DNA from: Spirochaetae bacterium HGW-Spirochaetae-3
GTDB taxonomy: Bacteria; Spirochaetota; Spirochaetia; Treponematales; UBA12059
DNA: 64,000 nucleotides
Assembly: GCA_002839315.1 (NCBI GenBank)
Contig: PGXV01000009.1
Coordinates: 1-64,000, forward strand
Direction of reading: 5' to 3'
Shown piece after piece: positions 26,118-28,091 of this stretch (its first letter is position 1; every line of letters starts with the position of its first letter). Below the pieces are notes generated by a model. That model saw only the letters and a program-made list of their open reading frames with translations, did not search any database and was not told the DNA's origin. Both the position numbers and the translations under genes were made by a program.

Positions 26118-26495
26118 TTACTTGCCGCGTTTCTTGAGCTTACGCTTCTCCCGAGCGGCCTCGTAGCGGGCTCGGTAGGCTTCCCGCCGCTCCGCGCTCG
26201 AATGGCTTTTGCGCGCCTCGGCGGTAGCGGCCCTGGCGGCCTTGTATGCGTCCAGCGCCTTCCTGCCGCTACCGCGCGCGTCCGGACGCTTGTCGCGGGC
26301 CTTAGCCTTGGGCGGTTCGCCACCGGGCAGGAAGCGCGACTCGCCGAGCACATCGAGGTAGTAATGAAGGAGTTCGGGGGTTCCGGGCTCGGGCCCGAAT
26401 ACGTGGCGCGCTAGACGGAGGACGCCGTCGTCCCCCTCGCGCTCGGCTATGGCCGTCCAGAACTGGCCGTCGAAGAAAATAGTGGTACCGCCCAT
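26118..26495 (-). CDS. yjdF: YjdF family protein (DUF2992)
   Basis: A 125-residue protein. TTIFFDGQFWTAIAEREGDDGVLRLARHVFGPEPGTPELL matches the conserved N-terminal half of Bacillus YjdF (YYDGQFWVGVVEV and ARHIFGAEP). The C-terminal half is very rich in Lys, Arg and Ala and likely helical, as in the family. The function of YjdF is not known. In Firmicutes its mRNA carries the yjdF-motif riboswitch, which binds azaaromatic compounds. Here a GGAGG six bases before the ATG is embedded in a switchable structure in a leader of about 150 bases. A MATE efflux gene is transcribed divergently next to it. Confidence 0.85.
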   Translation of the reverse strand: MGGTTIFFDGQFWTAIAEREGDDGVLRLARHVFGPEPGTPELLHYYLDVLGESRFLPGGEPPKAKARDKRPDARGSGRKALDAYKAARAATAEARKSHSSAERREAYRARYEAAREKRKLKKRGK

Positions 26496-26647
26496 GGTGG
26501 CCTCCGGGATATAAGCATCCTGGAGGCAAAAACGGACGCCCCGACGGGGACGGTTACTGAGCCCCGAACCGGCGCTCGCAGGCGCGGGACCGTCCGGACT
26601 ACCTACCGGACCGTGTATCTATTTTGCCTCGAATGATGAGAATGTCT
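26496..26647 (-). promoter_or_regulatory. Structured leader of yjdF, candidate yjdF-type riboswitch
   Basis: On the minus strand the leader starts with GAGGCAAAA (26630-26622), which pairs perfectly with UUUUGCCUC (26531-26523) as a 9-bp closing helix around about 90 bases. Inside are several short helices: CGGTT/AACCG (26551-26555 with 26567-26571), GCGC/GCGC (26572-26575 with 26582-26585) and CCCC/GGGG (26539-26542 with 26546-26549). The 3' strand of the closing helix also contains GCCUCC, which can instead pair with GGAGGC (26505-26500), the Shine-Dalgarno of yjdF, extended by GGAU/AUCC. The two pairings exclude each other, so ligand-stabilised closing would free the ribosome site. The riboswitch class is inferred from the gene it precedes; I could not match the consensus base by base. 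Confidence 0.68.
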
Positions 26648-26653
26648 AGGCGT

Positions 26654-26683
26654 ATGATACCCCCGGATCGGCGCGCCGCGCAA
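26654..26683 (-). promoter_or_regulatory. Promoter of the yjdF leader
   Basis: On the minus strand TTGCGC (26683-26678), an 18-base spacer and TATCAT (26659-26654), predicting a start near 26647. It is back to back with the MATE promoter, with 14 bases between the two -35 boxes. Confidence 0.6.
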
Positions 26684-26735: not shown

Positions 26736-28091
26736 ATGCGTCCTTCCCCTCTCTACCGGAACGTCCTTGCGATAGCCGCCCCCTCGGTCGCCGAGCTTAT
26801 ACTCACATCGCTGACTCAGCTCGTGGACACCGTCATGGTCGGCCGCCTTGGCGCCTACGCCATTTCGGCGGTGGGCCTGACGGGCCAGCCTAAGTTCATC
26901 ATGCTCGCGGTCTTCATAGCCCTTAACGTCGGCTCGACGGCCCTGATAGCCCGCTTCAAGGGCCAGGGCGACCGGAAGGCCGCCGAGCTCGTATCGGCGC
27001 AGACCATCATGCTCGCCATCATCGTCTCCGTCCTGCTGACGATACCCGGCGTGATCTTCGCGAGGCCCATGGTGCTCTTCATGGGCGCCCAGGCCGATAC
27101 GGTCGTCGCGGCGACGCGCTATTTCACGATACTGATGATAGGTTTCGTGCCGACGGTCCTGCCTATAGCGATATCGGCGCTGCTCCGCGGCGTAGGCGAC
27201 GCCAGGACGTCGATGCGCTACAACGTGACGGCCAACTTCGTAAACGTGGTATTAAACTACCTGCTGATATACGGCAAGTTCGGCTTCCCCGCGCTCGGCG
27301 TGGAGGGCGCAGCCATCGCCACGGTGCTAGGTAATTGCGCGGCGTGCGCCATGGCTATCGTCGCTATATCCGGACGGCGTACGAAGAAGGGCGAGCCGAG
27401 CTTCGCCCGGTTCAGGCTGTCCAGGGAGTCATGCATACCGGACCCGGCGATGCTGAGGCGCATGATACGTATAGGCCTGCCTTCGGCCGCCGAGCAGCTA
27501 GCGCTCCGGGCCGGGCTTCTCTTCTATACCATTACCATTACCGCGCTCGGTACGAAGGTCTTCGCCGCGCACCAGATCGTGCTGTCCATACTCAACATGT
27601 CGTTCGTCAACGGCCAGGCCTTCGGCATCGCGGCCACGAGCCTCGCGGGCCAGGCGCTCGGGCGAGGTGATCCCGGCGCGGCCAAGGACGCCTCGCGCGC
27701 GTGCCAGCGAATGGGAGCCTTCGTCTCGACGGTGATGGGCGTGGGCATGTTCCTGTTGCGTAGCCAGCTCGTGATGCTCTTCACCGACGACATCGAGATC
27801 ATCGCGCTCGGCGCCGGCGTCATGCTCATCGTCGCGGCCCTCCAGCCCTTCCAATCGTCGTTCCAGATATACGCCGGCGCGCTCAGGGGAGCCGGCGATT
27901 CGTTGTATCCGGCCATCTCCCTGGCTATCGGCATACTTCTGATCAGGCCGACCCTTTCATTCGTCTTCGTGCACGTGATGACGCTCGGCCTGTTCGGCGC
28001 GTGGCTGGCGCTCATGGCCGACCAGATCGTGCGGTTCGTCCTGATCCTCCTACGCTTTAAAAGCGGCAAGTGGGTGCATATAAAGGTCTAG
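26736..28091 (+). CDS. MATE-family multidrug efflux transporter
   Basis: A protein of 451 residues from the ATG just after the promoter; the frame is open to 26685, but that would include the promoter itself. Twelve predicted transmembrane helices lie in two six-helix halves. Helix 1 has AAPSVAELILTSLTQLVDTVMVGRLG, the standard MATE N-terminus. RGVGDARTSMRYNVTANFVNVVLNYLLIYGKFG and FGIAATSLAGQALGRGDPGAAKDASR are family repeats. MATE pumps expel cationic or aromatic drugs using H+ or Na+. Its divergent pairing with yjdF and that gene's sensor RNA supports a role against toxic aromatic compounds, though the drug is not identifiable here. Confidence 0.9.
   Translation: MRPSPLYRNVLAIAAPSVAELILTSLTQLVDTVMVGRLGAYAISAVGLTGQPKFIMLAVFIALNVGSTALIARFKGQGDRKAAELVSAQTIMLAIIVSVLLTIPGVIFARPMVLFMGAQADTVVAATRYFTILMIGFVPTVLPIAISALLRGVGDARTSMRYNVTANFVNVVLNYLLIYGKFGFPALGVEGAAIATVLGNCAACAMAIVAISGRRTKKGEPSFARFRLSRESCIPDPAMLRRMIRIGLPSAAEQLALRAGLLFYTITITALGTKVFAAHQIVLSILNMSFVNGQAFGIAATSLAGQALGRGDPGAAKDASRACQRMGAFVSTVMGVGMFLLRSQLVMLFTDDIEIIALGAGVMLIVAALQPFQSSFQIYAGALRGAGDSLYPAISLAIGILLIRPTLSFVFVHVMTLGLFGAWLALMADQIVRFVLILLRFKSGKWVHIKV

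Follow-up and report, generated by a model that had tools for sequence, protein, structure and literature searches.

Scanning the whole window (the 64,000-nucleotide stretch analysed here) with cmscan gave a single Rfam match, RF01764, at positions 26516–26632 of the minus strand. The match scores 68.8 bits with the covariance model (gathering threshold 45; E 1.3e-11) and spans model positions 1–101 of 101. The yjdF ORF begins 21 nt past it and encodes a PF11208 (DUF2992) protein, placing the aptamer in the 5' leader of a DUF2992 gene. Judged from its sequence, the element is a full-length riboswitch of the azaaromatic (yjdF) class, as the first-pass annotation had proposed; the positions given there for both P1 strands, the Shine-Dalgarno (SD) sequence, the ATG and the promoter site were correct to the base on the minus strand. 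The features of the locus are:

26118–26495, minus strand: yjdF (DUF2992) coding region, 125 aa (PF11208, E 1.8e-16)
26495–26493, minus strand: ATG of yjdF, from the sequence
26500–26505, minus strand: SD sequence GGAGGC of yjdF, 4 nt before the ATG
26500–26527, minus strand: predicted RBS-sequestering hairpin GCCUCC-A-GGAUG-CUUA-UAUCC-C-GGAGGC, 11 pairs (predicted fold and covariation of equivalents)
26516–26632, minus strand: azaaromatic (yjdF) riboswitch aptamer, RF01764, full model 1–101
26522–26531, minus strand: P1 3' strand UUUUGCCUCC, the switching strand common to P1 and the anti-SD hairpin
26523–26531, minus strand: the part of the P1 3' strand facing GAGGCAAAA, namely UUUUGCCUC, read from the sequence
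26622–26630, minus strand: P1 5' strand GAGGCAAAA, predicted partner of 26531–26523 in the open-RBS fold
26654–26683, minus strand: putative leader promoter TTGCGC-N18-TATCAT, 8/12 consensus positions

The genome belongs to the Spirochaetota, and RF01764 occurs once in the whole of it. The C-terminus of YjdF is rich in lysine and arginine (14 of the last 35 residues). Most relatives carry a promoter-like site at a similar distance, usually 17–28 nt upstream of the aptamer, and we infer that the leader is transcribed from the putative promoter. A divergent MATE efflux gene (26736–28091, plus strand) shares the 240-bp intergenic region with yjdF. It was rejected as a part of the system: the arrangement recurs in one same-genus genome only (L150, 79% identity), and the MATE gene does not adjoin the riboswitch in the other spirochaete copies tested. 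A terminator-like stem followed by UUUUU (26552–26537) was set aside, being the aptamer's own P4 and the U-run of P1.

The leader can form two helices that share one strand, 26531–26522, and are mutually exclusive. When the RBS is constrained to be unpaired, the predicted fold contains exactly the 9-bp closing helix P1 (26630–26622/26531–26523). The alternative anti-SD helix joins GCCUCC (26527–26522) to GGAGGC (26505–26500) and, after one mismatch, GGAUG (26520–26516) to UAUCC (26511–26507) around a CUUA loop. The first-pass annotation had described both helices and their exclusivity, with the second limited to the SD; its 11 pairs make it longer than that. In the predicted ligand-free fold of the full leader the SD hairpin is present and P1 is open, and with nearest-neighbour energies, which ignore tertiary structure, the unconstrained fold favours the hairpin by 8.7 kcal/mol in the window; its margin over the open-RBS state, computed likewise, has a median of 10.5 kcal/mol in 23 leaders. 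Pairing between the P1 3' strand and the SD in the window reaches −12.7 kcal/mol, which 6 of 200 shuffles equalled, and the local fold of the SD hairpin has a z of −2.6. This pairing is above chance in the window leader alone, and strongly so across related genomes.

RF01764 was found in 17 of the 394 genomes of the order, all of them among the 24 that encode DUF2992, and further spirochaete copies were drawn from phylum and class samples. A first comparison set 17 non-redundant spirochaete leaders of the P1 type, defined by leaving out spirochaete copies with an anti-SD in P4, against 35 non-redundant Firmicutes leaders, mostly from Lachnospiraceae. The median energy of the P1 3' strand with the SD was −14.1 kcal/mol (z −2.3) in the spirochaete set versus −5.5 kcal/mol (z 0.1) in Firmicutes, whereas that of P4 with the SD was −6.0 (z −0.1) versus −14.3 kcal/mol (z −2.3). 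Local folding gave the hairpin between the P1 3' strand and the RBS in 17/17 P1-type leaders; the hairpin of L015 is weak. Because the MAFFT alignment of the platforms misplaced the RBS strand relative to the structure, we used per-sequence folds and swap tests instead of alignment pair counts; in the swap tests the RBS and partner strands were permuted between genomes, and native and permuted pairing energies were compared.

In 24 non-redundant spirochaete leaders the native pairing of the RBS with the P1 3' strand (−13.4 kcal/mol) was stronger than the permuted one (−9.6 kcal/mol), none of 2000 permutations being as good. The same held for the low-GC and high-GC halves (0/2000 each). The P1 5' and 3' strands were also partner-specific (0/2000), so the P1 3' strand is constrained on both sides; at its positions 7, 8, 10 and 12 the pair types include GC, CG, AU and UA. 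Both the closing and the anti-SD helix therefore covary in related genomes, which supports the P1/anti-SD switch logic suggested from the single sequence. In P1-type leaders the pairing reaches beyond the SD, with matches such as UUUACC/GGUAAA, UUUUGCU/AGCAAAA and CUUUGCCUC/GAGGUAAAG. The RBS and P4 paired at chance level in the 24 leaders (190/2000 permutations as good), and in the P1-type set the P1 3' strand paired with the start codon no better than permutations did.

Nine new copies were taken from the class after the pattern had been written down; this held-out sample matters because the initial P1-type set excluded copies with a P4 anti-SD. Eight copies were of the P1 type and one of the P4 type (L141, with a 13-nt match between P4 and the RBS). 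For the seven non-redundant held-out P1-type leaders the RBS was specific for the P1 3' strand (0/2000) and paired with P4 at chance level (1205/2000). One leader, L142, carries both complementarities. Overall, 26 of the 32 spirochaete copies are of the P1 type and six are P4-type or clostridial-like (L009, L018, L124, L125, L126 and L141), L018 having been assigned by eye. We conclude from these sequence comparisons that in the spirochaete P1-type platform the P1 3' strand is the predicted partner of the RBS and that this pairing covaries.

The Firmicutes leaders gave a different picture. There P4 was specific for the RBS (0/1000 permutations as good) and the P1 3' strand was at chance (255/1000), in line with the published mechanism: P4 of the B. 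subtilis RNA has 11 nt that complement the RBS (Li et al. 2016, PMC4793209), a 2022 JBC paper reports 9–11 nt of P4 against the RBS and predicts an H-type pseudoknot as the off state, and the crystal structure locates the RBS-complementary motif in P4. The P1 3' strand with its 3' flank, however, paired specifically with the start-codon region in Firmicutes (0/1000), as seen in L067 (UUUGUUCAUAAC/GUUAUGAACAAA), L048, L085 and others; this helix is probably the second helix of the published off-state pseudoknot. A 9–11 nt P4:RBS match of the Firmicutes type was absent from the window, where P4 (CGUCCCCGUCGGGG) lacks CCUCC and its energy with the SD is at shuffle level.

On the tree of YjdF proteins one branch sets the P1-type copies apart (support 100/98, or 97/98 with the held-out copies; unrooted), so the platform type changes once. 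At least two platforms thus occur in the riboswitch class, and the YjdF family divides between them at that branch. Of the six spirochaete copies outside the P1 type, those placed in a tree (L018 is absent from it) group with Firmicutes YjdF, a placement that suggests horizontal transfer. The expectation that a copy in this phylum would extend or diversify the class held in its second part, since the expression platform differs from P4:RBS pairing; novelty at the level of the phylum was rejected, because Spirochaetes are already among the phyla listed with yjdF RNAs by Li et al. 2016 (PMC4793209).

Several other yjdF loci were noted. In several Treponema-group genomes yjdF genes without RF01764 have another conserved leader (L168, L169, L170, L171, L173 and L026; for example, L171 from 1498), about 165–197 nt before the start, in which AUACAUCUUUC pairs with GGAAGAUGUAU, covering the RBS and the start codon, and closes a multi-stem RNA. 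Two-sided changes were found in 10 of its 43 predicted pairs, and no Rfam family matched at E 0.5 in the four such leaders scanned (L024, L026, L028 and L029, whose genomes also hold several of the named loci), making it a candidate new cis-regulatory RNA for yjdF. Outside the parsed set were 37 clostridial YjdF loci, most without a recognisable aptamer upstream. Three clostridial leaders (L060, L103 and L122) are reduced to the riboswitch's 3' end, with GUCC, the P1 3' strand and the RBS present and the remaining aptamer gone, and look like decayed riboswitches. In Lactobacillus gasseri and Apilactobacillus kunkeei, yjdF genes on plasmids (L134 and L135) are preceded by a cyclase/kynurenine formamidase gene together with other small genes, and no riboswitch was seen directly upstream of them. 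In L042 (631–736) the yjdF frame of genome G285 is apparently split by a TD-1-like RNA or element (47.7 bits, below the gathering threshold of 64.5). A YjdF relative was not found in the viral contigs searched.

Beyond the observed class, gene, covarying helices and lack of Firmicutes-type P4:SD pairing, we propose, with a probability of about 0.83, that the element, a riboswitch of the azaaromatic class, switches yjdF translation on by means of an expression platform based on P1. In the ligand-free state, the P1 3' strand would pair with the SD and the surrounding bases in a stable hairpin that excludes ribosomes. A planar azaaromatic compound, binding the four-way-junction aptamer as we infer, would hold P1 closed; the 3' strand would then be unavailable, the SD would be freed and translation would be ON. 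The ON direction is suggested by the geometry and by published members, which are translational ON switches (PMC4793209, PMC10987639). A hairpin margin of the size computed here and in the relatives implies that ligand action probably needs P1 to form first during transcription: in this folding model some 9–10 kcal/mol is much for one ligand, and co-transcriptional folding, with P1 made before the RBS, and tertiary contacts of the aptamer would have to help.

The same margin makes the hairpin the predicted ground state and would also suit an element that slows yjdF translation constitutively, or acts on stability, uncoupled from any ligand. We regard this as improbable, because such a hairpin has no reason to reuse the P1 3' strand, yet in 24/24 leaders its 5' side coincides with the 3' strand of P1 in a conserved aptamer, and that strand covaries with both P1-5' and the RBS. 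Slightly less weight still goes to a Firmicutes-like mode, in which the off state would depend on pairing of the P4/T-loop with the SD, the liganded tRNA-like aptamer would promote translation, and the match between the P1 3' strand and the SD would be incidental. Clear class membership implies that the tRNA-like fold is probably common to the window copy, P4 of the window reaches −12.8 kcal/mol with the SD, and L142 has both complementarities; but 87 of 200 shuffled P4 strands did as well in the window, P4 there lacks CCUCC, P4 across the 24 leaders shows no specificity for its native RBS, and the P1 3' strand is specific for the RBS in every spirochaete set. It is true that SD sequences are purine-rich, that permuted partners already reach about −10 kcal/mol and that the sequences are related, so G+C content, shared ancestry or the pairing of purine-rich SDs with pyrimidine-rich strands might have created the complementarity. 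That reading is largely refuted and very improbable: native pairs outdid permuted ones in both GC halves and in the held-out genomes, P4 of the same leaders did not show this, and the pairing extends outside the SD.

Of the conserved ligand-pocket nucleotides in J1/2, L2, J3/4 and J4/1 (PMC10987639), the window copy has UAGGUAGU, AGUAAC, CC and A15 C16 A17 C18, but U in place of A14. The A14 equivalent, in J1/2 (26615–26623, minus strand), is U in the window copy only, the other 74 of the 75 aligned copies having A. In the R. gauvreauii structure A14 forms the floor of the ligand pocket (PMC10987639), and the U could leave ligand binding of the window copy impaired or changed. It seems unlikely, though conceivable, that the spirochaete branch changed sensing as well as readout, so that P1-type copies, notably that of the window, with their distinct YjdF subfamily (mostly of the FDGQFW type), would respond to a different set of ligands from Firmicutes.

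The novelty appears to lie in the expression platform: the P1 3' strand, not P4, is predicted to mask the SD in most spirochaete copies found. In the article texts searched we found no description of a P1 platform and no study of a spirochaete member. Promiscuous ligand binding is a known trait of the yjdF riboswitch, and tRNA-like switching through P4 has been proposed; a clade in which the aptamer is retained while P1 serves for the readout amounts to a natural experiment, with ligand recognition set apart from the P4 mechanism. The two platforms predict which mutations matter in each clade, the P1 switch offers a simpler version for reporters, and the comparative data indicate that one aptamer class can shift its anti-SD between helices.

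Compared with the RF01764 members of B. subtilis, S. aureus and R. gauvreauii (PMC2864571, PMC4793209, PMC9142559, PMC10987639), the window copy shares the full-length aptamer and the junction motifs (GGUAGUCC, AGUAACC and GUCC). The downstream gene family and the logic of RBS masking are also common to them. The published members, however, mask the RBS with 9–11 nt of P4, whereas P4 of the window copy lacks an anti-SD and masking is predicted to fall to the P1 3' strand. Translational ON riboswitches in which the closing strand of P1 doubles as the anti-SD are a general design; they likewise place mutually exclusive helices on one strand, but their aptamers are unrelated and no homology is implied.
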